A DNA stretch of 64,000 nucleotides, taken from the NCBI RefSeq assembly GCF_030408795.1, contig NZ_CP047211.1:2976001-3040000 (forward strand). The letters run 5' to 3'. The notes beneath the pieces were generated by a model. The model saw only the letters and a list, made by a program, of their open reading frames with translations, had not been told where the DNA came from and did no database searches. The stretch is from Corynebacterium hansenii (GTDB taxonomy: Bacteria; Actinomycetota; Actinomycetes; Mycobacteriales; Mycobacteriaceae). This document shows, piece after piece, positions 1-61,272 of the stretch (the first letter of the stretch is position 1; each line of letters begins with the position of its first letter). Both the position numbers and the translations under genes were made by a program.

Positions 1-1918
1 CCATGATGTCGCCGTGCGGTACCGCGTGGGCGCCGGACTCCGGCGACCAGTAGACGGAGCCGTGCTCGAAGCGCTGGAACTTGCCGCCGCGGATGTCCAG
101 CTCGCCGGTCTGGGCGAAGCCCAGCGGCCCCTCGGGCCCGTTGCCCGCCTTGTAGGCGGCCCCGATGGCGCCGAGGACGATCTGCGGGAGCCCGGCGGCG
201 GGCTTGACGATTTGCCCGCCCTCGAAGTCCTGCACCACGCCGCCGGGGACGTCGCGGCGGTCGGAGGTCGGGTAGCCGAGGCGGCCCTTCTCCCAGCCCT
301 CGTTGCCCCACATGTTCATGAAGTCGCCCATGACCAGGTGCGCGCCGAGCTCGGGCGTCCAGTAGATGGACCCGTGCTCGAAGTGGACGAAGCGGCCGAC
401 GCCGTCGGGCGTGGTCATCTCGCTGGTCTTCGGGTAACCCAGCGGCGACTCCGGGCCGCCGGCCTCGTGGTAGCGGGCGCCGATGCGGCCCCACACGAAC
501 TGGGCGCCGGTGAGGGGGTGCCAGTAGGCGCGGCCGTTGGTGAAGTCCTGCGCGCGGCCGCCGTTGGCCGTGTCGTACTCGGGCGACAGGCACGCGCCCA
601 TGTTGTCGAAGCTCTTGATGCGCTCGGCGATGGCTCCGCCCACGATGCAATTGGCTCCCCGGTCCTCGTCGGAAAGCTGCAGTGCGTCGGCGATCTGCGG
701 CCAGGCCTGGTTCATCTCGAACTGCCAGTAGGGCCACGAGTGCGTGCCGGATTCGCGGATCTTGACGGTGACCGGGACCTTCGCGGCGCGTGCGCGCTGG
801 GCGAAGGTCTCGGTGGTCATGCGCGCGATGACCTCCAGGCCGAAGCCCGCGGTGTTCTGCGGCAGGCCGGGGAACTGCGTCGACGGCACGTCCCACTGGC
901 CGGTGTTGCCGCTGCCCGCGGAGGCGTAGAGCGACATGCCCTTCAGCTTGGCCACGTTCTCCTTGGGGTCGTTGTCCTTCCACCGGGGCGAATCCACCGG
1001 GCCCCACATCTTCGTGGCGTCGTAGCCGCCGGCCTCGCGCATGGCCTGGCCGATGGCGGCGGGCATGCCGCGGCTGGAAGTGTCCAGGTAGCCGGAGAAG
1101 CTGCCGGCGAAGCGGAACAGATCCGGGTGGTGCGCCGCCAGGTTGAACGCGGCGGTGCCGCCCATGGACAGGCCGACGACCGCGCGGTCCTCGTTGGCGC
1201 GCCAGCCCTCGCGCAGCACGGGTACCAGCTCATCGACGAGGAACGACTCCCACTGGTAGTTCTTGCCGTTGTCCGGCTCGTTCCAGTTGGTGTAGAACGA
1301 CGACTCGCCGCCGACGGGCATGGCCACGATGACGTTCTTGTCGGCGTAGTAGCGCTCGATGTTCGTCTCCAGCGCCCAGCCGTTCCAGTCGTCTCGGGCG
1401 CGCATGCCGTCGAGATGCCAGATCGTCGGGAACGTCCGGCCCGGGTCGCGGTTCCAGTCGCGCGGCAGCAGCAGATCCACCTTGATCGGTTCGCCGGGCA
1501 TGGCGGCGGACTTGATGTGCAGCATCACGCGGCGCTCGGTGAGCCACTGCACCTTCTCCACCTCGACGGAGCCGGGCAGGTTCGGCAGCTTCTGCTCGGT
1601 CTCGCGGATGGGGGCCGGCTGTTCGCCGGGCCGGGGCTCGGGGGTCCACAGCGAGGACTGCATGGGCAGGGCGTCGGCGCCGGCACCGGCATCGTTGCCT
1701 TGGCTTGACGACGGCTCCCGCCCCGCCGGGGAGCCGGAGGGCTCCGCGGACCGCGACGCGCTCGTGGAGGGGGCGGAGGAGGCCGGTTTCTGCGACTGCG
1801 AACCCGCGGGGGACGCGTGCGCCGGGACTCCGGCGAGCGTCAGCGCCAGCGGGATCGCCGTGAGGACGGCGAGCACCCGGGAGCGGAGGCCCCGGGGGGA
1901 GTGTGCGGTATCTCGCAT
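1..1918 (-). CDS. Secreted mycolyltransferase with C-terminal LGFP repeats (Cop1/PS1-like), 3' end outside window
   Basis: Antigen-85 type esterase that would transfer corynomycolate from trehalose monocorynomycolate to arabinogalactan or to a second trehalose, acting outside the membrane. The start is ATG at 1918, the frame is open for 639 codons and runs off the left edge. Seen in order: a signal peptide (hydrophobic stretch about residues 13-30, ending near AHA at 35), a Ser/Ala-rich linker, the alpha/beta-hydrolase domain with GLSMGG (nucleophile Ser near 251) and GTHSWPYW (His near 393), then from about residue 420 repeated LGFP-type wall-binding units with LGYP and LGFA cores. This two-part build matches C. 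glutamicum Cop1. The linker contains one copy of the repeated 11-mer (1703-1713). The C-terminus is unseen. Confidence 0.93.
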   Translation of the reverse strand, partial: MRDTAHSPRGLRSRVLAVLTAIPLALTLAGVPAHASPAGSQSQKPASSAPSTSASRSAEPSGSPAGREPSSSQGNDAGAGADALPMQSSLWTPEPRPGEQPAPIRETEQKLPNLPGSVEVEKVQWLTERRVMLHIKSAAMPGEPIKVDLLLPRDWNRDPGRTFPTIWHLDGMRARDDWNGWALETNIERYYADKNVIVAMPVGGESSFYTNWNEPDNGKNYQWESFLVDELVPVLREGWRANEDRAVVGLSMGGTAAFNLAAHHPDLFRFAGSFSGYLDTSSRGMPAAIGQAMREAGGYDATKMWGPVDSPRWKDNDPKENVAKLKGMSLYASAGSGNTGQWDVPSTQFPGLPQNTAGFGLEVIARMTTETFAQRARAAKVPVTVKIRESGTHSWPYWQFEMNQAWPQIADALQLSDEDRGANCIVGGAIAERIKSFDNMGACLSPEYDTANGGRAQDFTNGRAYWHPLTGAQFVWGRIGARYHEAGGPESPLGYPKTSEMTTPDGVGRFVHFEHGSIYWTPELGAHLVMGDFMNMWGNEGWEKGRLGYPTSDRRDVPGGVVQDFEGGQIVKPAAGLPQIVLGAIGAAYKAGNGPEGPLGFAQTGELDIRGGKFQRFEHGSVYWSPESGAHAVPHGDIM

Positions 1919-2335
1919 GATGAGGGCTTTCCCTTACAAGTAAACGTGTCGTGTCCGGTGTCCAACCGCGGCGAACCCCGCCGATGGGCGCGGCACGCGG
2001 AAGCGAGCCCGGCCCGTCGCCGTGGAGGCCGCTCGGCGTCCGGCTCCCGGGAGTTCCCCTCTCCCGGGTGGGCGGTCGCGGCGCGACCGCCGCTTCGACC
2101 TTGATTCTTACCCGGGCGCGGCGCCGATTCTGGTGCGACGCGCCAAGAACCTCAGCTTTAAGTTCAACTTTAGGGTTGGGGCGGAGCAAAAGCCACGGAG
2201 CGGGCCACGCGGGCACGAACGGGGGCCTGTGCGCGAACGGGAGCGCGTGCACGAACGGGGGCGCGCCGACGGTAGCCGCCCTGTGCCCGGCAGGAGCTGC
2301 GTAGGATCCGCCGGCCCGACGGCCCATCCACGGCT

Positions 2336-2399
2336 AACCCACCCCGTATGCGCAGACCCACCCGCTGTAACGGGTGGGTCTGCGCATACGGGGTGGGTT
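2336..2399. repeat. Perfect long hairpin, 29-bp stem and 6-base loop
   Basis: Left arm 2336-2364 is exactly complementary to right arm 2371-2399, with loop CTGTAA. The arms carry ACCCACCC-type sequence twice, around a TATGCGCAG core. There is no T-run. It resembles in size, but not in sequence, the hairpins at 21387-21454 and 30954-31021. Confidence 0.9.
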
Positions 2400-2519
2400 G
2401 ACGAGGCGAGGGGCACGCTGGCGAGGGGCACGCCGGCAAAGGGCCACTCCCCCCACGCATGCGAAAACCCGCACTCTCCCGTCGCCGGTCGGTTTACCCA
2501 GGGGGCCCCGCACATGCGA

Positions 2520-2553
2520 AAACCCGCCCGGACCTTCCGGTCGGGGCGGGTTT
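2520..2553 (-). terminator. Probable terminator of the cmt gene
   Basis: Arms 2520-2534 and 2539-2553 pair over 15 bases with one mismatch and a TTCC loop. On the leftward transcript the stem is followed by GGTTTTCGC, a weak T-run. It lies about 110 bases after the stop of the mycolyltransferase at 2664. Confidence 0.6.
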
Positions 2554-3949: not shown

Positions 3950-3983
3950 GCTTCTCGACGTGCGCGAATGGCCGTCGCAAAGC
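3950..3983. repeat. Inverted pair of the 11-base repeat word
   Basis: GCTTCTCGACG (variant, 3950-3960) faces CGTCGCAAAGC (3973-3983) across 12 bases; 9 of 11 positions can pair. It lies downstream of ubiA and may end its transcript. Confidence 0.6.
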
Positions 3984-4016
3984 AACCCGCCGGCGGGCAC
4001 GGAAGCGGATGCGAAA

Positions 4017-4076: not shown

Positions 4077-5150
4077 CTACAGCGCGGGCACCGCGTACAC
4101 CGCGATGCCGATGGAGATGACCCACAGCAGCGCCAGCGCCTGCAGGGCGCGGTCGTGCAGGGCGATTTCGTCCGGGCTGCCCGCCGTGCCGCGGTCGACG
4201 TCGGCGGCGTAGCGCAGGATCGCGACGGTGAACGGCACCATGGAGATCTGGTACCAGACGGCGGCGGCCCCGACGGAGCGGTTGCCCATCTCGAAGCCCC
4301 ACAGCGAGTACGCCAGCACGACGGCGGTGGCGGACAGCGTCCACACGAACCGCAGGTACGTGGCCGTGTAGCCCTCCAGCGACTTGCGGATCTTCTTCTG
4401 CGACCGCTCCGCCAGCAGCAGCTCCGCGTACCGCTTGCCGGCCGCCATGAACAGCGATCCGAACGCCGCGACCAGCAGGAACCACTGCGACAGCAGGATC
4501 GACGCCGCCACGCCGCCCGCCATCGCGCGCAGCATGAAACCGGAGCTGACCAGCGCGATGTCGATCACCGGCTGATGCTTCCAGCCGAAGCAGTAACCCA
4601 GCTGCAGGGCGATGTACACCGCCGCGACGATGGCCAGGCCCGGCCCGGACGACGCCAGGAAGGACAGGCCGATGGAAGCCGCGATGAGGACCACCGCCAT
4701 GACGTAGGCGACCCGCACCGGCAGCACGCCCGCCGCGATCGGGCGGAAGCGCTTCGTCGGGTGCGCGCGGTCGGCCTCGACGTCGCGGGCGTCGTTGATC
4801 AGGTAGATCGCCGACGCCGCGAGGCAGAACACCACGAACGCGATGAGCACGTCGAGAAGCGTGCGGCCGTCGGTCAGCGCCTCGGCGCCGGCCGCCGCGG
4901 GGGCGGCGATGACCAGGACGTTCTTGACCCACTGCTTCGGCCGCAGCGCCTTGATCATGCCGTCGAGCAGGTTCTTCGGCGGGTGGCCCTGCGGGTTCGC
5001 GGGCTCGTCGATGCCGTAGGTGTGCGGCTCGGAACCCAGGTTCAGGCCGTCGCGGCGGTCGTCTACGCGATCGCCTCGCACGGCACGTCCCGCGCCCCGT
5101 GCGGCATCGGCCGCCGCCGGGTCGGGGTGGTTCACGCGGTCGTCGGTCAC
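4077..5150 (-). CDS. ubiA: Decaprenyl-phosphate phosphoribosyltransferase (DPPR synthase)
   Basis: Polytopic UbiA-family enzyme joining phosphoribosyl pyrophosphate to decaprenyl phosphate, the first committed step to the arabinose donor DPA for arabinogalactan. The 357-residue frame starts at GTG 5150, whose bases overlap the PAP2 stop (GTGA), with AAGGACAG just upstream. The first 40 residues are polar and poorly conserved. Then comes PKQWVKNVLV and the catalytic NDARDVEADR segment (about 119-129) followed by HPTKRFRPIAAG, and several hydrophobic helices to the C-terminus. Family (Rv3806c) length is about 300, so the N-terminus is long; a later start cannot be excluded. Third gene of the glfT2-PAP2-ubiA operon. 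Confidence 0.93.
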   Translation of the reverse strand: MTDDRVNHPDPAAADAARGAGRAVRGDRVDDRRDGLNLGSEPHTYGIDEPANPQGHPPKNLLDGMIKALRPKQWVKNVLVIAAPAAAGAEALTDGRTLLDVLIAFVVFCLAASAIYLINDARDVEADRAHPTKRFRPIAAGVLPVRVAYVMAVVLIAASIGLSFLASSGPGLAIVAAVYIALQLGYCFGWKHQPVIDIALVSSGFMLRAMAGGVAASILLSQWFLLVAAFGSLFMAAGKRYAELLLAERSQKKIRKSLEGYTATYLRFVWTLSATAVVLAYSLWGFEMGNRSVGAAAVWYQISMVPFTVAILRYAADVDRGTAGSPDEIALHDRALQALALLWVISIGIAVYAVPAL

Positions 5151-5818: not shown

Positions 5819-7850
5819 CCGCCCACCTCTTCCGGCTGGTCAGTTCGGGGTGCGCGTCGCGGTAGCGGCGGCGCATCTCGTCGAAGCGCTCGGCGACCTG
5901 CTTCTGCAGCGCGCGCGATTCCTCCAGCAGCGCCTTGGCCTTCTCGCGGTCGCGCTGGCGGTAGACCACGCCGCGGCCATCCGCGGTGGTCACCGTCGCG
6001 CCGTCGACGCGGGACAGGGAGAACCAGCGGGCCTCCAGCGGCGAGAGGTTCGCCTGCGGGGTCTCGTGGTGCGCGGGGTCGTGCGGGCGCAGGCTGTGGA
6101 GCAGGCCCTTGGCCAGCCACACGGACTTCTTCAGCGGGGCCAGGCGCCCGCCGATGTCCTTCGTGGGCACGCCCGGGATGCCGCTGGGCTTCGGCAGCAC
6201 GCCGGCCGTCGGCAGCACGCGGGCGTCGGGGTACTCCTTGCGCAGCGCGTTGATGCGCGGCAGGGAGGTTTCCAGGATGTCGAACAGCCGGTCCGGGCCG
6301 GCGAGGAAGTCCTTCATCGCCTCGTTCTGGATGGCGACGGTCGAGTACTCCAGGCACAGCAGGTGCTTGGCGGTGGCCTTCATCATCGACTTCACGATGC
6401 CGTCGACCGGGCCGTCGTGCTCGAGTGCGGCGACCACGAGGCGGTTGCGCAGGTGGAAGTACGCCTGCCAGTCGATGGCGTCGTCCTTGTCGGACCAGGC
6501 CATGTGCCAGATGGCGATGCCGGGCCAGGTGGCCGTCGGGAAGCCGTGGCGCGCGGCGCGCAGGCCGTACTCCGCATCGTCCCACTTGATGAACAGCGGC
6601 AGCGGCTGGCCGATCTTCTCCGCGATGACGCGCGGGATCAGGCACATCCACCAGCCGTTGTAGTCGACGTCGATGCGGCGGTGGAGGTCCTTGGAGTCGA
6701 TCTTCTCGCCGGTGGCGTTGACGCCGTGCTCGCCACGGTCGCGCAGCGGGTGGGCGTGGAAGTCGTGGTCGTAGTGGACGTGCGGCGCGGAGGTCCACAT
6801 GAAGTCGTGGCGGCCGACGACCTCGCCCATGGAGTGCAGGTGGCTGCGTTCCTGCAGGTTGAGCATCTGGCCGCCGACGAGCATCGGGGACTTCGCGAAG
6901 CGCCCCACGGCGACGGCGCGCAGGATCGAGTCGGGCTCGATGGCGATGTCGTCGTCCATGTAGAGGATGAACGGGCTGTCGGTGGCGCGCGCGGGGTCGG
7001 AGTCGGGGCCGCCGAGGGCCTCGTACATGATGCGCGAGTAGCCTCCCGAGCCGCCCAGGTTGCCCTGCGGGAACATCCGCAGCCGGTCGCCGAAGTGCTT
7101 TTCGACGGCCGGGAATCCGGGCTCGTCGGCGGGATGGCGGGTGCCCTGATCGGGCATGAGCACGGCGTCGATGATGCCGTCGACCTCGGGGTCGGAGGCG
7201 AGCGCCTCCAGCGCGGCGACGGCGTCCTCCGGGCGGTTGAACGTGGGGATGCCCACGGTCACCCGTCCCTCCGGCGCGGGATGGGTCGTTCCGTCCGGGT
7301 GCGTCTGGTCCGGCGCCGCGACGGGCGACCACCAGGCGGCGGAGTGGACGGTGACGTCGGTTTCGCAGGTCAGGTCGAACCAGATCCAGCCGCCGTCCTC
7401 GAACGGCGCCAGCGACACCGGGATCTCCACGATGGAGCGTTCCGCCGGGTTCGCCTGATCGCCGGCGAGCTCGCCGGTCACCGCGATGCGGCTGCCGTCG
7501 ATCTTGGAGCGGTACACGTCGACGCGGGCGACGCCCGACAGTTCGATGCGCAGGACGACCCGATCCAACGACGTCCAGCGGCGCCAGTAGCTGGCGGGGA
7601 AGGCGTTGAAGTAGGTCTCGAAACTGACCTCGTCACCGGCGGTGACGGAAGCTTCGGTCCGCGACGGCGCGACGACGCGCGCGGCGTTCGTTTCCGGCTC
7701 GACGAGGTACAGCGACCGCACGTCTCGCGGTTCGCCCGGCTTGGGAAGCAGGATCCGCTGCAGTCTTTCGACGGCGAGGCTTCCGTTCTGGACGTCTGTG
7801 CTCATGGGGGGCATCACGGCTTTCGGGTCGACTCGTAACTGGTCGGTCAC
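5799..7850 (-). CDS. glfT2: Galactofuranosyltransferase GlfT2
   Basis: Bifunctional processive enzyme that polymerises the galactan of arabinogalactan from UDP-galactofuranose, on the cytoplasmic face of the membrane. 683 residues from GTG 7850; ATG codons at residues 13 and 16 are alternatives. An N-terminal beta-rich region (about 40-180) precedes a GT-A domain from about 195 (VTVGIPTFNRPED). Metal-binding DDD is at 299-301, the catalytic WDDAEYG at 423-429, and HMAW at 449-452, corresponding to the residues known in the M. tuberculosis enzyme. A helical C-terminal region follows. First gene of the operon; the PAP2 gene starts within its last codons. The UDP-galactofuranose it needs is made by Glf (12899). 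Confidence 0.95.
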   Translation of the reverse strand: MTDQLRVDPKAVMPPMSTDVQNGSLAVERLQRILLPKPGEPRDVRSLYLVEPETNAARVVAPSRTEASVTAGDEVSFETYFNAFPASYWRRWTSLDRVVLRIELSGVARVDVYRSKIDGSRIAVTGELAGDQANPAERSIVEIPVSLAPFEDGGWIWFDLTCETDVTVHSAAWWSPVAAPDQTHPDGTTHPAPEGRVTVGIPTFNRPEDAVAALEALASDPEVDGIIDAVLMPDQGTRHPADEPGFPAVEKHFGDRLRMFPQGNLGGSGGYSRIMYEALGGPDSDPARATDSPFILYMDDDIAIEPDSILRAVAVGRFAKSPMLVGGQMLNLQERSHLHSMGEVVGRHDFMWTSAPHVHYDHDFHAHPLRDRGEHGVNATGEKIDSKDLHRRIDVDYNGWWMCLIPRVIAEKIGQPLPLFIKWDDAEYGLRAARHGFPTATWPGIAIWHMAWSDKDDAIDWQAYFHLRNRLVVAALEHDGPVDGIVKSMMKATAKHLLCLEYSTVAIQNEAMKDFLAGPDRLFDILETSLPRINALRKEYPDARVLPTAGVLPKPSGIPGVPTKDIGGRLAPLKKSVWLAKGLLHSLRPHDPAHHETPQANLSPLEARWFSLSRVDGATVTTADGRGVVYRQRDREKAKALLEESRALQKQVAERFDEMRRRYRDAHPELTSRKRWADVFEQQ

Positions 7851-8193: not shown

Positions 8194-10224
8194 TTGCCGA
8201 CTCGTAGTCGCATCAATTCCACCGCGATCGGCCGTCGCCCCTTCCTGGCGGGACTTGCGGCGACCACCGCCGCCGCATCCACGGCCGCCATCGCGAAGTC
8301 CGGCGTCGTCGGCTCGGGCCTGCGCCTGCTGGAGACGCCCGCGCCCGGCCCCGTCGACGTCCACATGGCCACCCAGGCCCTGTCCGACGCCGCCGCCGTC
8401 CTCGTCGACGACGCCGCCCTGGCCACCCGCGGACTCGTCGAAGCCCTGCACCCCAACCGCGGCCTGGTCAAGGAACTGCGCCACGACCGCGAATTCTCCA
8501 TGTTCGCCCTGACCTGGCGCGACGCCCCCAACGTCACCGCCTTCTTCCGCGCCGAACGCCCCGACGGCTCCTGGTCCGAATGGTTCTCCGCCGACTCCGT
8601 GGGCGCCCCCGGCATCACCGGCGAAGGCATCCAGGGCACCGACCCGGTGTACATCGGCCGCACCAAGGCCGTGCAGGTGTCCTCCTTCGGCCTCAACGTC
8701 TTCGGCGAAAAGCCCGAGGACATCATCGACGTCGTCAAGCGCGCCGGCGCCGGGGACTTCGCCGGCCTGGCCGACCTGCTCGGCCCCGTCGCCCTCCACG
8801 ACGTGAAGGGCGTGTTCATCGACGGCGGCCTCACCCCCGACGGCGTCGAACCCGTCGCCAACGACTCCGACGTCACCGGCATGCCCCGCGTGATCACCCG
8901 CGCCGGCTGGGGCGCCGACGAATCCATCCGCGGCTCCGGCCCCACCTACGACGACAAGCTCGAGGCCGCCACCGTCCACCACACCGCCGGCGCCAACAAC
9001 TACTCGCAGGCCGAGGCCGCGGGCATCGTGCGGGGCATTTACAAGTACCACACCCAGGTCCTGGGCTGGGGCGACGTCGGATACAACGCCCTCGTCGACA
9101 AGTTCGGCAACATCTACGAGGGCCGCTACGGCGGGCTGACCAAGAACGTGCAGGGCGCGCACGCCGGCGGCTTCAACAAGGGCACGTTCGGCATCTCGAT
9201 GATGGGCGACTACTCCACCGCCCACCCGACGCAGGCGATGATCAACTCCGTCGGCGCGATGATCGGCTGGCGCCTGCGCATCGCCGGCCTCGACCCGTCC
9301 GGCAAGGCCACGCTCGTGTCGCAGGGCTACAAGTCCGCGAAGTACGGCGCCGGCCAGAAGGCCAACCTGCCGACCATCTTCGCCCACCGCGACGTCGGCG
9401 ACACCACCTGCCCCGGCAACGCCGGCTACGCGCAGATGGACCGCATCCGCGCCATCGCCGCGCAGAAGTCCACCGGCCTCGGCGACGGCATCATCAACAA
9501 CGAGCACCCCGACGGAACCACCGACATCCGCGCCGACCTGCCCGGCAGCAGCGCCGACATCGGCGAGATCATCGACGGCCTGGGGCTGCCGCCGGAAGCC
9601 ATCGCCGCGATCCCGGGGCTGCAGGCCATGGGCGACGACAAGAACGGCGCGGGCAAGAACGGCGACGGCAAGAAGGCAGATGACAAACAGGCCGACACCT
9701 TCTCCGGCGGCCGAAGCATCCTCGCCGCGTCGCTCGGCCTCGCCGGCGCGCCCGGCCTGGGCAACGACGCCGAGTCCGTCCTCGGCGCCGTCGGCCGCAA
9801 CGCCGACCAGGGGCCGTCGCTCGCCGACATCCCCGTCGTGGTTCAGCCGACGACCGCCAAGGACGGCGACGACGAGTTCGCCGCCGAGTGGCGCAAGGTC
9901 ACCGACGAGTACGGCGACGTCCTGGGCAAGCCGGTCACCGGCGTGCAGCAGGGCGCCACGGTGCCCAACGACTCCGGCACCGCGGATCCGGTGCGGTACG
10001 TGAAGTTCGAGCGCGGGATCATCGTGAACTCGATCGCCACCGGCACGCACGCCATCTGGGAAGAAGTCGCCGAGGCCTGGGCGAAGCAGGGCTTCGAGAT
10101 CGGCCGCCTCGGCGCGCCGACCACCACGCAGGCCCCGAACTGGGGCGCCGACCGCGCGGACTTCCAGGGCGGCAGCATCACCCGCGATGGCGTGACCCGC
10201 GCCGTCAACGTCGCGTACGCATAG
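8194..10224 (+). CDS. Secreted N-acetylmuramoyl-L-alanine amidase, Tat-type signal, LGFP-like C-terminus
   Basis: 676 residues, predicted to cleave the MurNAc to L-Ala bond of peptidoglycan outside the cell. The start is TTG, supported by GGAG nine bases before it and by a signal sequence that begins at once, with IGRRPFLAGLA resembling a twin-arginine motif. A conserved N-terminal region (SMFALTWR...SWSEWF) is shared with the paralogue at 13271. The amidase_2 domain runs from about 235 (VITRAGWGA) with Zn ligands expected in VHHTAG and AHRDVGDTTCPG. After a Lys/Gly-rich linker the last 110 residues hold one LGFP-like unit (FEIGRLGAPTTTQ). It lies divergent from glfT2, suggesting wall-linked expression. 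Confidence 0.88.
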   Translation: MPTRSRINSTAIGRRPFLAGLAATTAAASTAAIAKSGVVGSGLRLLETPAPGPVDVHMATQALSDAAAVLVDDAALATRGLVEALHPNRGLVKELRHDREFSMFALTWRDAPNVTAFFRAERPDGSWSEWFSADSVGAPGITGEGIQGTDPVYIGRTKAVQVSSFGLNVFGEKPEDIIDVVKRAGAGDFAGLADLLGPVALHDVKGVFIDGGLTPDGVEPVANDSDVTGMPRVITRAGWGADESIRGSGPTYDDKLEAATVHHTAGANNYSQAEAAGIVRGIYKYHTQVLGWGDVGYNALVDKFGNIYEGRYGGLTKNVQGAHAGGFNKGTFGISMMGDYSTAHPTQAMINSVGAMIGWRLRIAGLDPSGKATLVSQGYKSAKYGAGQKANLPTIFAHRDVGDTTCPGNAGYAQMDRIRAIAAQKSTGLGDGIINNEHPDGTTDIRADLPGSSADIGEIIDGLGLPPEAIAAIPGLQAMGDDKNGAGKNGDGKKADDKQADTFSGGRSILAASLGLAGAPGLGNDAESVLGAVGRNADQGPSLADIPVVVQPTTAKDGDDEFAAEWRKVTDEYGDVLGKPVTGVQQGATVPNDSGTADPVRYVKFERGIIVNSIATGTHAIWEEVAEAWAKQGFEIGRLGAPTTTQAPNWGADRADFQGGSITRDGVTRAVNVAYA

Positions 10225-10343
10225 CAGGCGGCGCAGGGCCGGCGCGGCTTCCCCGGCCGCCCGGTCCTCCTCTTCGGGGGGCCGACGCCGGCTGGGGCCG
10301 GGGGCGGCTGAGGGGCCGCTGGCGCACCTGCGCGCCTTTTGCT

Positions 10344-11648: not shown

Positions 11649-11696
11649 GGGATCGCCGGGACGTCGTGAAGCTCTTTTATCTTCCGCTCCCGCGCC

Positions 11697-13270
<1,574 letters not shown>

Positions 13271-15718: not shown

Positions 15719-15741
15719 CGTCGCAAAGCAGCTTCGCGACG
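15719..15741. repeat. Back-to-back inverted pair of the 11-base repeat word
   Basis: CGTCGCAAAGC (15719-15729) and GCTTCGCGACG (15731-15741) are separated by one base and 10 of 11 positions are complementary. They lie between the convergent amidase and HAD genes. Confidence 0.75.
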
Positions 15742-47624: not shown

Positions 47625-48524
47625 ATGAACACCCGCGATACCGCCACCCCGGCCCACGACCAGCACACGGGCGCCGCCACGGACGACCCGGTGACCATCA
47701 CGTACGAGGAGCTCGATGGCGCGCGCATCGCCGTCGTCGCGCTGAATCGGCCGGCGAAGCTCAACGCGCTGACCATGGCCACGCTCCGCGGCCTCGATGC
47801 CGCGGCGAAGTCGCTGCGCCGCGATCGCGACCTGCGCGGGGTGATTTTCGCGGGCGAGGGGGCGTCGTTCTGCGCCGGCCTGGATTTCGCGTCGGTGATG
47901 AAGAAGCCGCTGGACATCGTCTCCGCGTTCGCCCCGAATCCGCTGGCGCGCGACGGCGCGAACCTGTTCCAGCGGGTGTGCTGGGAGTGGCGCCGCCTGC
48001 CCGCGCCCGTCATCGCGGTGGTCCACGGCCATTGCTACGGCGGCGGCGTGCAGCTGGCGCTTGGCGCGGACTTCCGCGTCACGGCGGCCGATGCCCGCTG
48101 GTCGGTGCTCGAGACCAAATGGGGCCTGATCCCCGACATGTCGGGCGCGCGCACGCTGGCCGACCACGTCGGCGCGGAGCGCGCCCGCTGGCTGACCATG
48201 ACGGGCGAGGAGCTGTCGGGCACGGAGGCCGTCGCGGCCGGGCTGGCCACGGAAACCGCGGATTCGCTTGACGACGCCCACGCGCGGGCCCGCGACATGC
48301 TCCGCCAGTTGATCGGCCGGTCCCCCGACCAGATCGCGGCGACGAAGTCGCTGTTCAATTCGGCGTGGCGCTCCCCGCGCGCCACGTTCCGGGCGGAGCG
48401 CTTCCAGCAGGCGAAGCTGCTGGTCAGCGAAAACGCCGCCCGCGCCCGGGCTGCGGGACTGAAGAAGAGGGCGCCGGATTTCGTCAGCCGCGGGACGCTG
48501 ATCTTCGGCCGGAAGAAGCGCTGA
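47625..48524 (+). CDS. Enoyl-CoA hydratase/isomerase family protein
   Basis: 299 residues of the crotonase fold. The two oxyanion-hole segments are GEGASFCAGLDF (about 82-93) and GHCYGGGVQLALGADFR (about 128-144), followed by ETKWGLIPDMSGARTL. It could act in fatty-acid or amino-acid CoA metabolism; the acyl substrate cannot be told. A repeated-word copy encodes ADSLDDAHARAR (48266-48276). Its last 41 bases overlap the end of the convergent RecB-like gene. Confidence 0.88.
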   Translation: MNTRDTATPAHDQHTGAATDDPVTITYEELDGARIAVVALNRPAKLNALTMATLRGLDAAAKSLRRDRDLRGVIFAGEGASFCAGLDFASVMKKPLDIVSAFAPNPLARDGANLFQRVCWEWRRLPAPVIAVVHGHCYGGGVQLALGADFRVTAADARWSVLETKWGLIPDMSGARTLADHVGAERARWLTMTGEELSGTEAVAAGLATETADSLDDAHARARDMLRQLIGRSPDQIAATKSLFNSAWRSPRATFRAERFQQAKLLVSENAARARAAGLKKRAPDFVSRGTLIFGRKKR

Positions 48525-51439: not shown

Positions 51440-53143
51440 ATGACTTTCGCCTCGGGCTCCTCCCCCTCGTCGCCGACGCCGTCCCGCCGCACCGTCCTCA
51501 AGGCCGGTGCCGCCACCGCCGCCCTCGTCGGCACGTCGAGCCTCGCCGGCCGCTTCACCGCCGCGGCCCAGGAAGCCGCGCAGCAGGCCGTCGACGCCGG
51601 CGGCCACGCCGTCTTCCAGCACGGCGTCGCATCCGGCGATCCGCTGCCCGACTCCGTCCTCCTGTGGACCCGCGCCACCTCCAACCCGGACGACATCCCC
51701 GGTTCCGGCGCCGGCACCGTCGTCAAGCTGCTCTGCGAGGTGGCCACCGACGACTCCTTCTCCGAGATCGTCCTGTCCGGCGAGACCACCGCCTCCCCGG
51801 ACAACGACAACACCGTCAAGCTCGACGCCACCGGCCTGAGGCCCGACACCCGGTACTGGTACCGCTTCACGGTCGCCGACGGCGAGTACGCCGGGCAGGT
51901 CTCCCCCATCGGCCGCACGCGCACCGCCCCGGCCGCCTCGGCGACGCCCGACAAGCTCGGCATCGCGTTGACCTCCTGCGCCAACTGGGAAGCGGGCTAC
52001 TTCTCCGCCTACCGCGACATGGCGGACAACCCGGACGTCGACGTCATCATGTGCGTCGGCGACTACCTGTACGAATACGCCAGCGGCGAATACGCGGCCA
52101 AGGACGGCGCCATCCGCAACCATGAGCCGGCGCACGAGATCATCTCGCTGTCCGACTACCGCCGCCGCTACGGCCACTACCGCACCGACGCCGACCTGCA
52201 GGCCGCCCACGCCGCCAAGCCGTGGCTGGTGACCTGGGACGACCACGAAATCGCCGACGACGCCCACGCCACCGGCGCCGACAATCACTCCCCCGAAAGC
52301 GAAGGCGACTACGCCGCCCGCCGCGACGCCGCCTACCAGGCGTACCTGGAGTGGCTGCCCGTGCGCGCCACCCCGCTGTCCCAGGGCGGCCACCTCTACC
52401 GCGCCTTCGCCTACGGCACCCTGGCGGACATCACGATGCTCGACCTGCGCACCTACCGCGACAAGGCCCCCGAGTTCGTCAACGCCCGCGACACCGACGA
52501 CGAGAACCGCACGATGCTCGGCTCCGAGCAGATGAAGTTCCTGCACAACCGGTGGTCGACGTCGTCGGCGTCGTGGAACCTGGTCGGCAATTCCGTGATG
52601 TTCACCCCGGTGCTCATCCCGCCGCTGGACCCGCAGACCTCCGGCGCGATCACCGAGCTGATGGGCCTGCCGCAGGAGGGCATCCCCTACAACTCCGACC
52701 AGTGGGACGGCTACGCCCATGAGCGCCGCCGCCTGATCCAGATCATGTCCGAGCAGGGGCTCGACAACGTCGTGTTCCTGACCGGCGACATCCACTCCTC
52801 GTGGGCCTGCGACGTGCCGGTGGCGCCCGGCCGCTACCCCGCCGACGGCGTCGCCGCCGCGGAGATCGTGTGCACGTCCGTCAGCTCGCCGAACATCGAC
52901 GACATCGTGAAGTTGCCGCCGCGCAACCCCATTTCGCTCGCCGCCGAGCAGGCGCTGTCCACGGCCAACCGCCACGTGAAGTGGGTGGAGTTCGACAACC
53001 ACGGCTACGTCAGCGTCCATGTCCGCGCCGATGAGATCGTGGCCGAGTACCGCTTCGTCGACGACAAGACCGTGCCCAACCGCCCGCTGCACACCGCCGC
53101 GCGGTACCGGGTGCGCCGCGGCGAGGGCGTGTCGCCCGCGTAG
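51440..53143 (+). CDS. phoD: Alkaline phosphatase/phosphodiesterase PhoD, Tat-exported
   Basis: 567 residues. Secreted metallophosphatase releasing phosphate from organic esters. The leader SRRTVLKAGAATAALVG is a clear twin-arginine signal. An N-terminal beta-sandwich (about 55-165) precedes the catalytic domain: LTSCANWEAGY, MCVGDYLYEY, WDDHEIADDA, and FLTGDIHSSWA hold the Fe/Ca ligands of the PhoD family. Expression under phosphate limitation is usual; the upstream 51300-51430 contains TTCGTTAATT but I cannot name a Pho-box with confidence. Confidence 0.95.
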   Translation: MTFASGSSPSSPTPSRRTVLKAGAATAALVGTSSLAGRFTAAAQEAAQQAVDAGGHAVFQHGVASGDPLPDSVLLWTRATSNPDDIPGSGAGTVVKLLCEVATDDSFSEIVLSGETTASPDNDNTVKLDATGLRPDTRYWYRFTVADGEYAGQVSPIGRTRTAPAASATPDKLGIALTSCANWEAGYFSAYRDMADNPDVDVIMCVGDYLYEYASGEYAAKDGAIRNHEPAHEIISLSDYRRRYGHYRTDADLQAAHAAKPWLVTWDDHEIADDAHATGADNHSPESEGDYAARRDAAYQAYLEWLPVRATPLSQGGHLYRAFAYGTLADITMLDLRTYRDKAPEFVNARDTDDENRTMLGSEQMKFLHNRWSTSSASWNLVGNSVMFTPVLIPPLDPQTSGAITELMGLPQEGIPYNSDQWDGYAHERRRLIQIMSEQGLDNVVFLTGDIHSSWACDVPVAPGRYPADGVAAAEIVCTSVSSPNIDDIVKLPPRNPISLAAEQALSTANRHVKWVEFDNHGYVSVHVRADEIVAEYRFVDDKTVPNRPLHTAARYRVRRGEGVSPA

Positions 53144-53505
53144 GCGCCCTCTTCCCGGTCCCGGCTCCGGCCGACCGACCGACGGCCCCGGACGCCCGCC
53201 AGTGGCGCCCGGGGCCGTTTTGCGTGGCTTCCCGGGCTCACTCCTGCGGCGAGCGCCGCGATGTGACGAATTCCACCCGACTTTGCGGACCATCCGCACA
53301 TTTCGTTTAACCCGCCGCATAGTACTTTTGCTTCTCGACGCCTATGCGGAATCCGAATCGACTGAGAATTCACCGAGATTCGCCGCAATTGAAGCGCCCG
53401 ACCATTAAATCCGTATACAATTCGATGCAAGACCGAGATCACACCAGAGAAGGCATGACGGTGCACGTGACGGCGCCGATGCCACCCACCACAGATAGGG
53501 AAGAC
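53144..53505. other. 362-base region upstream of lsr2
   Basis: Contains the phoD terminator, then from about 53300 to 53450 the most AT-rich stretch near this gene, with a TACAAT -10 candidate at 53416-53421 and a variant repeated word GCTTCTCGACGCC (53330-53342). AT-richness would suit autoregulation by Lsr2, an inference. Confidence 0.5.
53183..53221 (+). terminator. Intrinsic terminator of phoD
   Basis: CGGCCCCGG (53183-53191) and CCGGGGCCG (53209-53217), with an inner CGCC/GGCG stem, followed by TTTTGCG. Confidence 0.8.
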
Positions 53506-54073: not shown

Positions 54074-55444
54074 TTGCTGGCACCCCTGGTCTTCGTCATT
54101 TCGGGGATCCTCAAAGCCTGGCACCTCGTCATTTCGGCGGTGCCGGGCGTTTCCGCGTCCACGGCCTGGACCGCGTCGGTGGTCCTGCTGCTGATCACGG
54201 TCCGCACGGCCCTGCTGCCCATCGCCTACAAGCAGTTGGTGATGGGCCGGAAGACGGTCAACCTGCGACCCGAGTTCGCCGCGATCCGGCTGAAGTACGC
54301 GCGCAGCATCGATCCGAACGCCGCGAAGTACGAGAAGTGGGCGGCGCAGGAGCTGCGGAAGCAACACGGCATCAACGTGTGGACGGGGCTGATCCCCCCG
54401 CTGGTGCAGATCCCGGTGTTCATCGGGCTGTACCGCATGCTCCGGCACATGGCCGCCGTCGGCGCGCACGGGTCGTCGCACGTGACCGAAAGGGTGGGCC
54501 TGCTCAGCGGCGATGAGGTCCGCGGATTCGCCTCCGCGACATTCTCGGGCGTTCCCCTGCCCGCATATCCCGCGATGCCGCAGCCGCAATTGGCCGAACT
54601 GGGCACGAGCTTTTCTGATGTCCTCTCCGTCGCCACCCCGCTCATTTTCGCGGCTGCCGCATTCACGGGCATCAACATGGCGATTTCCGTCAATCGACTG
54701 CGGCGCACGCTCGACCACGGTTCGCGCTTCATGCGCGGCACCTACAAATACCTGGTCTTCATGACCTTCTTCGCCGTGTCGTTCCCGCTGTTCTTCGGCT
54801 TTTTCGGCCCGGCGCCGCTGGCGATCGTCGTCTATTGGGTGTGCAACAACCTGTGGACCATGAGCCAGAATGCCATCATCACCATCATCCTCGAGGCCCG
54901 TCATCCCCTCACGCCGGAATTCAAGGCCCTCCGGGATCAATCGCGGGATGCGCGACGGCAGCAGCGGAAGAATCGGCGGCGCAATCGTCGTGAAGCTCGG
55001 TCCTCCCGCTGGCGCGCGGTGGCCGGGACCATCCGCCACCCGCGCCGACGCGAGGAACTGTGGGACGCCCACCGCACCTTCCTCGCGGAACGCGAGGCCG
55101 CGGCGAAGGCGATGACCGACAGGCAGATGGCGCAGAAGGTCAAGATTCACCAGACGCGGCAGCTCGCGCGCCTGCTGCGCACCGAGTCCCAGGGCGACCT
55201 GCCCAGCATGGACCGCCCGACGCGAGTCAACGACGCTTGGCGACGGACTGCGCCCCTCCCGGAGCCGGCCACCCAGGAGGACGAGCGGATCGTCGGCAAG
55301 CTGGGGAAGGTCGTCGTGCGGATGGTGCTGGCGAAGGATGCGCAGGACAAGAAGCGCGCCGAGACGAAGCGGGCGAAGGCGGCCGCGCGGCTCAAGGCGA
55401 GGGCAGCGGCCAGGGCCGCGAAGAACGCCGGGTTGGACGGCTGA
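54074..55444 (+). CDS. YidC/Oxa1/Alb3-family membrane insertase (second-paralogue type)
   Basis: 456 residues. Inserts or folds membrane proteins. Helices at about 1-15, 30-50 and, after PPLVQIPVFIGLYRML, three more to about 265; RTALLPIAYKQL holds the groove Arg of the family. A hundred-and-eighty-residue basic C-terminal tail, rich in Arg/Lys/Ala, is much longer than in standard YidC and could contact ribosomes. The start codon is TTG 54074, with a weak GGGATGGG upstream. The main YidC gene is normally beside rnpA and jag, not here, so this is probably the additional paralogue. Two repeat-word variants lie in the tail. Confidence 0.87.
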   Translation: MLAPLVFVISGILKAWHLVISAVPGVSASTAWTASVVLLLITVRTALLPIAYKQLVMGRKTVNLRPEFAAIRLKYARSIDPNAAKYEKWAAQELRKQHGINVWTGLIPPLVQIPVFIGLYRMLRHMAAVGAHGSSHVTERVGLLSGDEVRGFASATFSGVPLPAYPAMPQPQLAELGTSFSDVLSVATPLIFAAAAFTGINMAISVNRLRRTLDHGSRFMRGTYKYLVFMTFFAVSFPLFFGFFGPAPLAIVVYWVCNNLWTMSQNAIITIILEARHPLTPEFKALRDQSRDARRQQRKNRRRNRREARSSRWRAVAGTIRHPRRREELWDAHRTFLAEREAAAKAMTDRQMAQKVKIHQTRQLARLLRTESQGDLPSMDRPTRVNDAWRRTAPLPEPATQEDERIVGKLGKVVVRMVLAKDAQDKKRAETKRAKAAARLKARAAARAAKNAGLDG

Positions 55445-56400: not shown

Positions 56401-56440
56401 GCTTTGCGACGCCAGCCGGATGAGCGGAGGCGTCGCAAAG
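56401..56440. terminator. Inverted pair of the repeat word, probable terminator
   Basis: GCTTTGCGACGCC (56401-56413) and GGCGTCGCAAAG (56429-56440) form a perfect 12-base stem with a 15-base loop. It lies about 150 bases downstream of the leftward gene ending at 56593. Confidence 0.65.
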
Positions 56441-56592: not shown

Positions 56593-57207
56593 TCACTCAC
56601 CCTCGAACAGCCCGAACTCCCGGGCGGTGGACTCATCGGCGCGGCATTCGAGGTCGTCGTAAAGCTCCCAGCAGGGCAGCCGGTCCCAGTCGGTTTCGGC
56701 GCGCCGTCCGCCCTCGTGCACAAGGTCGAAGCGGTACGGCCCGACCCGGTGATCGAGCACGACGATCACGCCCAGCCGTTCCAGCGCCCGCGCCAGCCGC
56801 CGCTCGACGTTCGGCCTCGCGCCCTCCGGCACCCACGACAGCAGCGCGACCAGCTCCGACGCCCGCGGGTGCGCCAGGGCCCGGGCTTCCTCCAGCAGAG
56901 CCGCACGGCTCGCCACATCGGGCATCTTCTTGTCGACGACCATCGCCACCAGTTCCGCGCCCCACTGCGAAGGGGCCATGAGATCGGCCAACGTCTGCGC
57001 GGCGCCGGTCGCGCGCCAACCGTGGACGAGCACGCCCGTCGTCGTGGATGGCATGCGGCGGTGCACCACGGCGCCCTGGGGCCGGGCGACGCTGCGGGGC
57101 ACGATCACATCGAGCTCGGCGGGCGGCGACTGCCGGAACCCGTGCAGCCACGCCGCCGTGCGGTGGGAAAACACCGCAGTCGGGTTCAGCCTCATCACCA
57201 GCGCCAT
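56593..57207 (-). CDS. AbiEi-like/DUF559-like protein of unknown function
   Basis: 204 residues. FSHRTAAWLHGF at the N-terminus resembles the winged-helix start of type IV antitoxin AbiEi proteins; the C-terminal part (VVLDHRVGPYRFDLVHEGGRRAETDWDRLPCWE) resembles the nuclease-like DUF559 domain often fused to it, with an Asp and Glu in the right places. Start ATG 57207 by length; an upstream in-frame extension would translate a 15-base minisatellite (AAIPP repeats). No toxin partner lies next to it. A repeated-word copy overlaps its 3' part (56655-56665). Confidence 0.65.
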   Translation of the reverse strand: MALVMRLNPTAVFSHRTAAWLHGFRQSPPAELDVIVPRSVARPQGAVVHRRMPSTTTGVLVHGWRATGAAQTLADLMAPSQWGAELVAMVVDKKMPDVASRAALLEEARALAHPRASELVALLSWVPEGARPNVERRLARALERLGVIVVLDHRVGPYRFDLVHEGGRRAETDWDRLPCWELYDDLECRADESTAREFGLFEGE

Positions 57208-57786: not shown

Positions 57787-57986
57787 CGGAACGCTAACGT
57801 TTTGAGAAAGATTTTCTACGCCCCGTCACGGAATCCCCTCAGGTCACGCTTGGTTTTCCGTGTCAGGGGCAAAACGAGAAAGTTCTTCTGAAATTCACTT
57901 CCACCGGGCTGCACATCCGCGGATCGGCCGTCGAAAAGCGGTCGGCCGGGGGCCGGGGCCCCACCCGGGGCCCCGCACCGCATCGA

Positions 57987-58889: not shown

Positions 58890-58979
58890 TTTGCCCCCTC
58901 CTTGTAGGGCGGCGGCCGCTGCCGGCTTCCGCCTGTCTTGTGCACGTCCACCACCCACGGTACCCCCGTTTCACCCGCT

Positions 58980-60020
58980 TTACGACGGCTGACGGGCACC
59001 TTTTTTCGGCGATTGCGTGAACCACGCCAAACCGAGCTTATGAATCGACCGGATGCGCACCCGCGGGTCATGCGAGTAGGTGACGGTGATGATCTCGTCC
59101 GCTCCCGTCTCGGCGGCGAAACCCTCCAGACCTGCGACGACGTCGGCGGCGGTGCCGACGAACGAGCACCGCAGCATTGCCTGCACCCGTTGCCACTCGA
59201 TCATCGTCGCGCCGGCCTCGGGGTGGTCGACCGGTTCGGGCAGCGGCTTGCGGGCGCTGCCGCGGCCGAGTGACAGGAACATCCGCTGCACGACGGAGAA
59301 CTCCCGCCGCGCCCGGTCCGCGGTGTCGGCGACGAGGACGTTGGCTGCGACCATGACTCGGGGTTCGGCGATGGTGGCCGTGGGGGCGCCGGCGTCGAAG
59401 GCGCTCCGGTACACCTCGAGCGACTCGGCCAGCTGATGCGGCGCGAAGTGCGACGCGACGGCGAAGGGCATGCCCAGCGCCGCGGCAACCGACGCGCCGG
59501 CGGTCGTGGAGCCGAGCACGTACATGGGCACGTTGGTCGCCTGGCCGGGATGCGCGACGATCGTCGCCTCCGGCCGCACCGGTCCCAGGTACCGGATCAG
59601 GTCCCGGATGTCCGAGGCGAAGTCGGCGACGTCGGAGGCGCCGCGCCGCAGTTCGCGGGCCGTCGCCGGGTCCGTGCCCGGCGCGCGGCCGAGCCCGAGG
59701 TCGATGCGGCCGGGATAGATGGTGGCCAGCGTGCCGATGTCCTCCGCCACCCGCAGCGGCGCATGGTTGGGCAGCATGATCCCGCCGGACCCGACGCGGA
59801 TGGTCGACGTCGCCCCGGCGATGTGGCCCATCAGCACCGCCGTCGCCGACGACGCGATGTTGAGCGTGTTGTGGTGCTCGGCGATCCAGAACCGCCGGTA
59901 CCCCGCCGCTTCCGCCGCGCGGGCGGCTTCGACGCTGGCCGCGATGGCCTCGGCGGCGTTCGACCCCGCGGAGACCGGCACCAGGTCGAGGACGGAAAGC
60001 GGCACCCGTGTTTCGCTCAT
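58980..60020 (-). CDS. LLM-class flavin-dependent oxidoreductase
   Basis: 346 residues of the luciferase-like fold, FMN- or F420-type; the MsnO8-type family label fits best. LDLVPVSAG...ALEAARAAEAAGYRRFWIAEHHN at the N-terminus and GSGGIMLPNHAPLRVAEDIGTLATIYPGRIDLGLGRAPG are typical. Substrate unknown. The stop codon TAA is inside a copy of the repeated word (58977-58987). A -10 hexamer lies six bases before ATG 60020. Confidence 0.9.
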   Translation of the reverse strand: MSETRVPLSVLDLVPVSAGSNAAEAIAASVEAARAAEAAGYRRFWIAEHHNTLNIASSATAVLMGHIAGATSTIRVGSGGIMLPNHAPLRVAEDIGTLATIYPGRIDLGLGRAPGTDPATARELRRGASDVADFASDIRDLIRYLGPVRPEATIVAHPGQATNVPMYVLGSTTAGASVAAALGMPFAVASHFAPHQLAESLEVYRSAFDAGAPTATIAEPRVMVAANVLVADTADRARREFSVVQRMFLSLGRGSARKPLPEPVDHPEAGATMIEWQRVQAMLRCSFVGTAADVVAGLEGFAAETGADEIITVTYSHDPRVRIRSIHKLGLAWFTQSPKKGARQPS

Positions 60021-60026
60021 GCCCTC

Positions 60027-60032
60027 GTTGTA
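60027..60032 (-). promoter_or_regulatory. -10 element of the LLM gene, probably leaderless
   Basis: TACAAC on the leftward strand, six bases before ATG 60020; GAGGG lies between and could also act as a ribosome site. Confidence 0.4.
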
Positions 60033-60087
60033 CACGACGCCCCGGATCGCGCCCGGCCGCCGCCATGGCCGGGTCCGCCCCGATTGC

Positions 60088-60093
60088 TACGAT
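60088..60093 (+). promoter_or_regulatory. -10 element of the pseudouridine synthase gene, probably leaderless
   Basis: TACGAT, then six bases, then GTG 60100. Confidence 0.45.
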
Positions 60094-60099
60094 CCTCGC

Positions 60100-61272
60100 G
60101 TGCCCATGACCTTGGACGATCCCGGCTGCTTCGACGATCCGGCGGACGACGCGGACCTCGGCGAGCAACCCGATCCGGCCGAGAAACCGGAGCCGACTTC
60201 GCGCCGGTCGCCTCGCCGCCGCCGTCGCCGCACCGCGCCCCTGCCGATCCGCGACGGCCTCAACCCCTCCCGGGTCCGGGCGCCGCAGGCCGGTCCGGGA
60301 GCCTCCGGAACCGTCACCGCACTCGAGCTGCTCACCGCCGCCATCGAGGGGCAGACCCATCGCCATCCCGCCGACGATGCCGCCGCCATCGCCGCGCGCT
60401 TCGCCGACGGCCTGGTCGTCGACGCCGCCGGCCGCCCCCTCTCCCCCGGCTCCGAACTGCGGCCCGGCGCGGACATCTGGTTCTACCGGCTGCCGGCCCC
60501 GGAACCCCGGCTCGCGGGCCCGATGCCGATCATCCACCGCGACCGGGACATCGTCGTGGTGGACAAGCCGCCGTTCCTGGCCACGACGCCGCGCGGCCGC
60601 CACATCGTCGAATCGGCGGTGGTGCGCCTGCGCCGCGAACTCGGCGACGGCGACCTCATCCCCGCCCATCGCCTCGACCGCCTCACCTCCGGCGTCCTCG
60701 TCTTCGTGGCGCGGCCGGAGGCTCGCGGCGCGTACCAGGATCTGTTCGCCGAACCGGGGGCCGTCGTCAAGCGTTACGAGGCACTCACCCGACTACCCGG
60801 CCCCGCCGACCTGCCCGCACCCCCGTTCACGCTGGCCACGCGGCAGGAGAAGACCCGCGGCGTCCTGCAGGCGCGCACCGTCGCGGGCGAGCCGAACGCG
60901 CGGACCATCGTCGACGGCATCGAGGTTGGCGGCCATGTGCTCGGCGGCGCCGGAAGTGACGGCATTGGGCTTGGCGGCGCCGGGAGTGACGGCACTGGGC
61001 TTGACGACGCCCGCCGGCTCCCCGGAACGGCCCTCTGGCACCTGCGGCCGCTGACCGGGCGCACCCACCAGCTGCGGCTGCACCTCCACGAACTGGGGTT
61101 CCCCATCCTCGGCGACCCCCTCTACCCCGAGGTGCTGCCCGCCGACGCCGAAGATCCCGCGCGACCGATGCACCTGGTCTGCCGCGAGCTCGCGTTCGAC
61201 GACCCGTTCACCGGCGAGCGCCGGGTGTTCCGCAGCGGGCGGTCCACGGCCGATCCCGCCACCGCACCCTGA
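60100..61272 (+). CDS. RluA-family pseudouridine synthase
   Basis: 390 residues. Isomerises specific uridines in rRNA or tRNA. HRLDRLTSGVLVF holds the catalytic Asp, VVDKPPFLATTPRG the N-terminal box, and GRTHQLRLHLHELGFPILGDPLY the C-terminal one. The N-terminal 50 residues are basic (SRRSPRRRRRR). An insert of about 25 residues (about 285-308, GGHVLGGAGSDGIGLGGAGS) is encoded by a short tandem repeat ending in a copy of the repeated word (60999-61009). GTG 60100 is preferred over ATG 60106 because of the -10 position. Confidence 0.9.
   Translation: MPMTLDDPGCFDDPADDADLGEQPDPAEKPEPTSRRSPRRRRRRTAPLPIRDGLNPSRVRAPQAGPGASGTVTALELLTAAIEGQTHRHPADDAAAIAARFADGLVVDAAGRPLSPGSELRPGADIWFYRLPAPEPRLAGPMPIIHRDRDIVVVDKPPFLATTPRGRHIVESAVVRLRRELGDGDLIPAHRLDRLTSGVLVFVARPEARGAYQDLFAEPGAVVKRYEALTRLPGPADLPAPPFTLATRQEKTRGVLQARTVAGEPNARTIVDGIEVGGHVLGGAGSDGIGLGGAGSDGTGLDDARRLPGTALWHLRPLTGRTHQLRLHLHELGFPILGDPLYPEVLPADAEDPARPMHLVCRELAFDDPFTGERRVFRSGRSTADPATAP

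Follow-up and report, generated by a model that had tools for sequence, protein, structure and literature searches.

A window of 64,000 bases from the chromosome of Corynebacterium hansenii (bases 2,976,001-3,040,000 of its one contig, which is 3,098,017 bases long) is densely sprinkled with a short word, GCTTNNCGACG, that lies on both strands, within genes as well as between them, and that in some other members of the genus is replaced by a spelling with one base changed. We propose, at a probability of roughly 0.78, that this word is a DNA-uptake sequence, existing in dialects, that would mark DNA for natural transformation via a Tad pilus, ComEA, and ComEC; the uptake itself, a pilin receptor, and a drive that spreads the tags are what we infer from the sequence distributions described below.

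The bipartite word and its place on the chromosome

The first-pass annotation of the window described an 11-base word, GCTTKRCGACG, with about 35 copies, 19 on the plus strand and 16 on the minus strand, spread over positions 1703..61009. The extent and the plus-strand count are borne out, whereas the minus strand holds 15 copies rather than 16, so that there are 34 exact copies. The G+C content of the window, 0.709, is slightly higher than the two-thirds assumed at that time, and the estimate of less than one copy expected in 64 kb agrees with 100 dinucleotide shuffles of the window, which gave a mean of 0.32 and at most 3. Genome-wide, there are 976 copies (497 plus, 479 minus), compared with 38 (14 and 24) of the same word written backwards. 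In a 464-kb sample, composed of the window and 20 evenly spaced 20-kb stretches of the genome, 151 copies were seen versus an order-4 Markov expectation of 4.0.

The boundaries of the word emerge from the same sample and the same type of model. Single-base changes at any of the nine fixed bases (positions 1-4 and 7-11) reduce the excess to 2.4-fold or less, whereas at spacer positions 5-6, 15 of the 16 possible fillings exceed expectation. Because the spacer tolerates substitution but the fixed bases do not, the true word is the bipartite GCTT-NN-CGACG, that is, GCTTNNCGACG. GCTTKRCGACG is merely its commonest part, reflecting a preference in C. hansenii for T or G followed by A or G, so that a word whose spacer is limited to K followed by R, although genuinely enriched, is too narrow and was rejected. 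The full word occurs 1,889 times in the genome (952 plus, 937 minus; 118 for the reversed control), 1,893 times in another assembly of this species, and 53 times in the window (25 plus, 28 minus). In the flanks of 65 intergenic copies, delimited with earlier, poorer gene calls, C predominates at positions +13 (0.78) and +14 (0.68), with a slight preference for a pyrimidine immediately upstream; the pooled copies additionally show a three-base rhythm of C further downstream, as the preferred codon frame of the word would give. There is no longer conserved flank: what is held constant is the nine fixed bases and, mainly, the C at +13.

Codon usage does not account for the excess. After the gene calls had been re-trained on genes with Pfam support (third-position G+C, 0.93), a 484-kb sample was found to hold 294 copies: 199 within genes, 91 in intergenic sequence, which makes up 18.6% of the sample, and 4 at the edges of genes. 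In 200 synonymous shuffles, the genes yielded a mean of 29.6 copies and never more than 40, and codon usage was accordingly rejected as the explanation. An earlier gene caller, which put many genes on the wrong strand, placed 65 copies between genes, 219 inside, and 10 at edges, with a shuffle maximum of 49; the 65 intergenic copies of these poorer calls compare with a mean of 1.03 in an order-3 Markov simulation. Among the sense copies, 104 of 120 share the frame G CTT NNC GAC G, so that the word accounts for 104 of the 271 occurrences of CTT, a rare choice among the 12,043 leucine codons of the sample. Density is highest in convergent spacers (1.65 per kb), followed by tandem (1.16) and divergent ones (0.63).

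The equal use of both strands, noted in the first-pass annotation from the window, extends to the genome and to the replication arms. The 484-kb sample has 140 plus and 154 minus copies. The contig starts at dnaA-dnaN-recF-gyrB, and when its halves are taken as the arms, with the terminus assumed near the middle, the plus/minus counts are 57/65 and 83/89, or 146 leading and 148 lagging, with no replication-strand bias in this sample. The strand difference is above two standard deviations in a single one of 140 genomes rich in the motif. The inverted pairs at gene ends described earlier are present as well. Among 16 pairs less than 40 bases apart, 10 are head-to-head and could form a hairpin, 2 are tail-to-tail, and 4 lie on the same strand, compared with approximately 2, 2, and 4, respectively, estimated for random placement; in the window, each of the three hairpin pairs coincides with the 3' end of a gene or follows it closely (Table 1). 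Overall, the copies are spaced somewhat more evenly than at random (coefficient of variation, 0.84).

The word is depleted in the one prophage that we examined. At 14.1 kb, the longest word-free gap among the samples extends to just past a phage integrase, and the surrounding prophage (about 719.5-763.8 kb, approximately 44 kb), which encodes an endolysin, tail, portal, and major head proteins, terminase, RecT/RecE, and the integrase, contains 1 copy versus about 27 expected at genome density, with a normal G+C content of 0.67-0.73. Separately, a low-G+C island (0.48-0.60) at 839-845 kb of the same genome (L101:14001-20000) has one copy in three 2-kb windows.

Two spellings across Corynebacterium

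Exact counts in 201 Corynebacterium genomes split the genus sharply: GCTTNNCGACG is present in at least 280 copies in 140 genomes and in fewer than 150 in the other 61, with none in between. A one-base variant, GCTTNNCGATG, reaches 625-1,337 copies in 11 genomes, 10 of which have fewer than 100 copies of GCTTNNCGACG; the eleventh, G159, is rich in both (352 GCTTNNCGACG, 1,337 GCTTNNCGATG). The two spellings thus largely replace each other, one or the other being found in 150 of the 201 genomes and neither in 51, among which G089 (213) and G100 (159) show weak enrichment of GCTTNNCGATG. Of 16 genomes from other families of the same order, 15 have fewer copies of the KR form than of a control word, and 62 non-Corynebacterium loci (1.17 Mb) show no enrichment, with 28 copies of GCTTNNCGACG and 54 of the reversed word. 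Among 18 loci from named Corynebacterium species, 11, including those of C. tuberculostearicum, C. kefirresidentii, C. gottingense, C. lemuris, and C. oculi, hold 8-14 copies of GCTTNNCGACG in 13-22 kb; that of C. macginleyi holds none and instead 9 copies of GCTTNNCGATG; and 6, among them those of C. glyciniphilum, 'Ca. C. avicola', and C. parakroppenstedtii, hold 0-2.

In a tree of 68 taxa (64 of them Corynebacterium; support of at least 0.9 at 45 of 65 nodes), GCTTNNCGACG is found in both deep halves of the genus and GCTTNNCGATG is confined to one clade, and there are several separate absences of the word, one of which (G055) adjoins the C. hansenii genome. Parsimony requires 10 changes of presence and absence, or 13 with the spellings included, whereas 1,000 shuffles of the labels needed 28.7 on average and never fewer than 21; it is compatible with either gain or loss of the word at the root.

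The switch between the spellings can be seen in place in one region. In the 20 kb around comEC compared between the related species G004 and G006, 6 of the 10 alignable GCTTNNCGACG sites are GCTTNNCGATG at the same position, through a C to T change, and the remaining 4 are not a site at all, so that none of the 10 keeps GCTTNNCGACG; in 5 of the 6 switched sites, even the spacer letters are the same. The comparison of C. kefirresidentii with C. macginleyi, in which 4 of 8 sites are switched, partly repeats these events. Such concerted change at a single base is the trace that a drifting reader of the word would leave.

Some genomes with altered or missing words deserve separate mention. In G015 and G010, both without GCTTNNCGACG, CGACGCCACC is enriched (22 copies versus 1.8 in 120 kb and 12 versus 1.0 in 100 kb, respectively); it has CGACG-CC in common with the word and, judging from these samples, may be a third dialect. 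CTACTCGAAA occurs 8 times in 60 kb of G012 and TACTCGAAA 10 times in 100 kb of G014, with about 0.1-0.3 expected. G013 (C. parakroppenstedtii) keeps mostly the 3' half, TTGCCGACG (23 versus 1.7 in 80 kb), perhaps a degenerate form of the word, of which this genome has 280 full copies.

Transformation genes, the putative reader, and rival explanations

The competence and pilus genes that the first-pass annotation suggested looking for are encoded in C. hansenii. Those for ComEA (299 aa) and ComEC (665 aa) lie side by side at 832.8-835.7 kb of the genome, in the order comEA-comEC-holA that holds throughout the genus samples, and a Tad locus at 257.9-263.0 kb reads TadZ-TadA-TadB-TadC-Flp-TadE-TadF, where TadA was identified by a Pfam match and the other names are our presumptive assignments from gene order and family features. 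In one assembly of a species rich in the motif, comEC is split over two frames (G001:C4:524862-525658, L046), which a frameshift, recent loss of the gene, or an error in sequencing could explain.

In the scenario that we favor, a surface protein of the transformation apparatus, in our opinion most likely a TadE- or TadF-like minor pilin of the Tad pilus, would read the half-words GCTT and CGACG in double-stranded DNA. The pilus would carry the tagged fragments across the mycolate outer layer, ComEA and ComEC would move them into the cell, and recombination would install them. As tagged alleles would be imported more often, the tag would accumulate on both strands of the chromosome, in spacers as well as at those places in genes where the encoded protein permits it, and would be missing from recently arrived phage DNA. 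When the preference of the reader drifts, the sites would follow in place, giving rise to dialects such as GCTTNNCGATG, and when specificity is lost, they would decay; if this is right, the reader is the component that varies. The resemblance to an uptake sequence recognized in the first-pass annotation is strengthened by the excess over the Markov expectation, strand neutrality, the synonymous shuffles, the two spellings, their switching in place, and the depletion in the prophage.

Several observations weigh against this scenario. Among the matches listed, judged by titles and the starts of abstracts, there is no report of natural transformation in Corynebacterium. Several of the features described would also be expected of a Chi site for AdnAB. 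One genome from another family of the order, G032, has 44 copies of GCTTKRCGACG versus 17 of the control, the sole exception among the 16. Both comEC (in 25 of 25 and 30 of 30 genus genomes examined) and the TadA ATPase (16 of 16 and 30 of 30) are found in every genome, those without the word included; the presence of the machinery is therefore permissive rather than predictive, and neither gene can be the switch. The earlier gene caller, which makes absences of small genes unsafe, underlies the gene content of the Tad loci and comEC neighborhoods: the called tad genes are complete in the motif-less G003 and G014, a TadF-like gene is uncalled in the motif-less G010 and G015, and no gene around comEC in the genus samples follows the presence of the word. 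In alignments of TadE, TadF, and Flp (14, 14, and 17 genomes), inspected by eye, no residue obviously tracks the word. On a different note, the match of TadA to the T2SSE profile does not begin until about position 86-100 in ten word-less genomes (G010, G015, G049, G070, G082, G088, G092, G111, G164, and G174), whereas the match starts at about 2-13 in most motif-rich genomes and at 3-11 in the motif-less G003, G014, G044, and G046; the late start may be a clade signal.

The chief competitor, in our judgment an unlikely one, is a Chi-like hotspot, at which an AdnAB-type helicase-nuclease would read GCTTNNCGACG in single-stranded form, stop degradation, and load the recombinase. Chi, too, is a chromosomal word at high density that is depleted in phage DNA, so that the prophage fits this model as well, and the copy number is of the same order as for known Chi sites. 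Moreover, adjacent long open reading frames with PDDEXK_1 nuclease domains, AdnAB/AddAB-like as far as the nuclease domains go, are found in 12 of 12 genus genomes, and whether AdnAB responds to a Chi was, as of 2016, described as not known (PMC4824097). However, RecC is absent from all 201 genomes, which makes an E. coli-type system unlikely and led us to reject Chi of the RecBCD type; the word shows no orientation relative to the replication origin; 6 motif-less genomes examined retain the AdnAB/AddAB-like pair; and inverted pairs and enrichment at 3' ends have no known role in Chi. Strand neutrality, the hairpin pairs, and the absence of the word from genomes that retain the nuclease speak against it.

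A site for chromosome organization or a nucleoid protein, or one kept by a DNA methyltransferase or another modification enzyme, as has been suggested for the HIP1 word of cyanobacteria, would be compatible with the dense, rather even spacing, the confinement to one genus, and strand neutrality. We nevertheless consider it quite improbable: the switching in place, the repeated absences on the tree, and the depletion in the prophage suggest either a drive tied to gene exchange or a quickly drifting reader, the word is not a palindrome, and restriction sites are usually avoided, not gained. That the word is a dispersed mini-element, a terminator stem, or a by-product of codon usage is hardly credible. 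Some copies do form hairpins at gene ends, but two thirds of them lie in genes, and the flank composition together with the synonymous shuffles refutes this family of explanations as a full account.

Sites in the window and relation to known systems

The sites of the window are listed in Table 1. The genes in positions 1-18000 concern cell-wall assembly and encode two esterase-domain proteins, which we take to be mycolyltransferase-like, UbiA, PAP2, GlfT2, UDP-galactopyranose mutase, and two LGFP-repeat amidases. Elsewhere in the genome, a second repeat family, TTCGGGGTGGGTTAGC, was encountered (samples L010, L011, L014, L015, L017, L018, L023, and L025), its first 15 bases occurring in 14 exact copies in 484 kb, often beside a hairpin of the form CCCACCCG...CGGGTGGG and in some cases in tandem; it looks like an element of the repetitive extragenic palindrome (REP) type.

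Table 1. Copies of the bipartite word in the 64,000-base window
Site	Position	Strand	Context
GCTTTCCGACG	667..677	-	in gene, sense
GCTTGACGACG	1703..1713	+	in gene, antisense
inverted pair GCTTCTCGACG(+) / GCTTTGCGACG(-)	3950..3983		12-base loop; intergenic, downstream of gene 4077-5150(-)
GCTTCTCGACG	4850..4860	-	in UbiA-family gene, sense
GCTTCCCGACG	6534..6544	-	in GlfT2 gene, sense
GCTTTTCGACG	7097..7107	+	in GlfT2 gene, antisense
GCTTGACGACG	8730..8740	-	in gene, antisense
GCTTTACGACG	10341..10351	+	across 3' end of gene 10344-11576(-)
GCTTCTCGACG	10694..10704	-	in gene, sense
GCTTCACGACG	11662..11672	-	intergenic
GCTTTGCGACG	13055..13065	+	intergenic
GCTTCCCGACG	13896..13906	-	in gene, antisense
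pair GCTTTGCGACG(-) / GCTTCGCGACG(+)	15719..15741		between convergent genes
GCTTTGCGACG	16598..16608	+	in gene, antisense
inverted pair GCTTGACGACG(+) / GCTTGACGACG(-)	19086..19117		10-base loop; at 3' end of gene 19098-19724(-)
GCTTGGCGACG	21842..21852	-	in gene, sense
GCTTGACGACG	23638..23648	+	in gene, sense
GCTTGGCGACG	24905..24915	-	intergenic
GCTTGACGACG	25446..25456	+	in gene, sense
GCTTGACGACG	26953..26963	-	in gene, sense
GCTTCACGACG	27679..27689	-	in gene, sense
GCTTGACGACG	29386..29396	+	intergenic
GCTTTGCGACG	29969..29979	-	in gene, antisense
GCTTTGCGACG	32130..32140	+	in gene, antisense
GCTTGGCGACG	34819..34829	+	in gene, antisense
GCTTTTCGACG	34909..34919	-	in gene, sense
inverted pair GCTTTACGACG(+) / GCTTTGCGACG(-)	36305..36345		19-base loop; intergenic, downstream of gene 36426-38045(-)
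GCTTCCCGACG	39202..39212	+	in gene, sense
GCTTTACGACG	41003..41013	+	intergenic
GCTTGTCGACG	41745..41755	-	in gene, antisense
GCTTTTCGACG	44057..44067	+	in gene, antisense
GCTTTGCGACG	45133..45143	+	intergenic
GCTTGGCGACG	45653..45663	-	in gene, sense
GCTTGACGACG	47178..47188	-	in gene, sense
GCTTGACGACG	48266..48276	+	intergenic
GCTTGACGACG	49579..49589	+	in gene, antisense
GCTTTGCGACG	49667..49677	-	in gene, sense
GCTTGACGACG	51718..51728	-	in PhoD gene, antisense
GCTTCTCGACG	53330..53340	+	intergenic
GCTTCACGACG	54986..54996	-	in gene, antisense
GCTTGGCGACG	55235..55245	+	in gene, sense
GCTTGCCGACG	55291..55301	-	in gene, antisense
GCTTTGCGACG	56401..56411	+	intergenic
GCTTTACGACG	56655..56665	-	in gene, sense
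GCTTTTCGACG	57929..57939	-	intergenic
GCTTTACGACG	58977..58987	+	across 3' end of gene 58980-60035(-)
GCTTGACGACG	60762..60772	-	in gene, antisense
GCTTGACGACG	60999..61009	+	in gene, sense
GCTTTCCGACG	63575..63585	-	in gene, antisense

The closest parallels are found in the two families with known uptake sequences. The DNA uptake sequences (DUS) of Neisseriaceae use both strands and form inverted pairs at gene ends, and they resemble the word also in being short, non-palindromic, and present in very high copy number. Both come in dialects that differ by one or a few bases and, in the case of DUS, follow phylogeny (PMC3630211). The Corynebacterium word differs from DUS in its unrelated sequence with an N2 spacer, in the Tad locus of C. 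hansenii, where a counterpart of ComP was not found, and in that 51 of 201 Corynebacterium genomes have neither spelling. The host, a member of Actinomycetota, also has a mycomembrane, unlike Neisseriaceae. The uptake signal sequences (USS) of Pasteurellaceae, with about 1,300 copies in H. influenzae, are similar in number and also form inverted pairs, which serve as terminators (PMC5217627); they have two main dialects (PMC12616744). USS differ in sequence, in the class of pilus, and in the flanks, with spaced downstream segments where GCTTNNCGACG has mainly the C at +13 and a codon periodicity.

A 2016 review assigns sequence-specific uptake to two families, Pasteurellaceae and Neisseriaceae (PMC5031613), and a 2025 receptor study covers the same two (PMC12616744). 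Among the matches listed, open-access titles and the starts of abstracts contain no report of such a word in Corynebacterium or Actinobacteria, and a prior report elsewhere is possible; in a survey of spaced motifs (PMC5217627), all five mentions of Corynebacterium concern CRISPR. In Micrococcus luteus, an actinobacterium, the competence genes are tad and comEA/comEC (PMC6667448), the gene set that would be expected for uptake here, in the same phylum; the phrase 'uptake sequence' is absent from the text of that paper. An uptake sequence in Corynebacterium would thus apparently be the first outside Neisseriaceae and Pasteurellaceae. A bolder reading, which we consider somewhat more likely than not, is a third, independently evolved system, with no precedent in Actinomycetota or in mycomembrane-bearing cells, that would be read by a component of a Tad pilus instead of a minor pilin of type IVa, would be old in Corynebacterium, and would, through one-base dialects, split the genus into sexual-isolation groups.

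If this is the case, high-G+C Gram-positive bacteria would possess an unrelated, third system, so that sequence-selective transformation must have evolved more widely, and Corynebacterium, a genus that includes common commensals of the skin and nose, would exchange genes by natural transformation. The word and its variants could then provide practical tags for transforming species that are hard to modify, and the series of dialects would offer a system for the discovery of the receptor through co-evolution.

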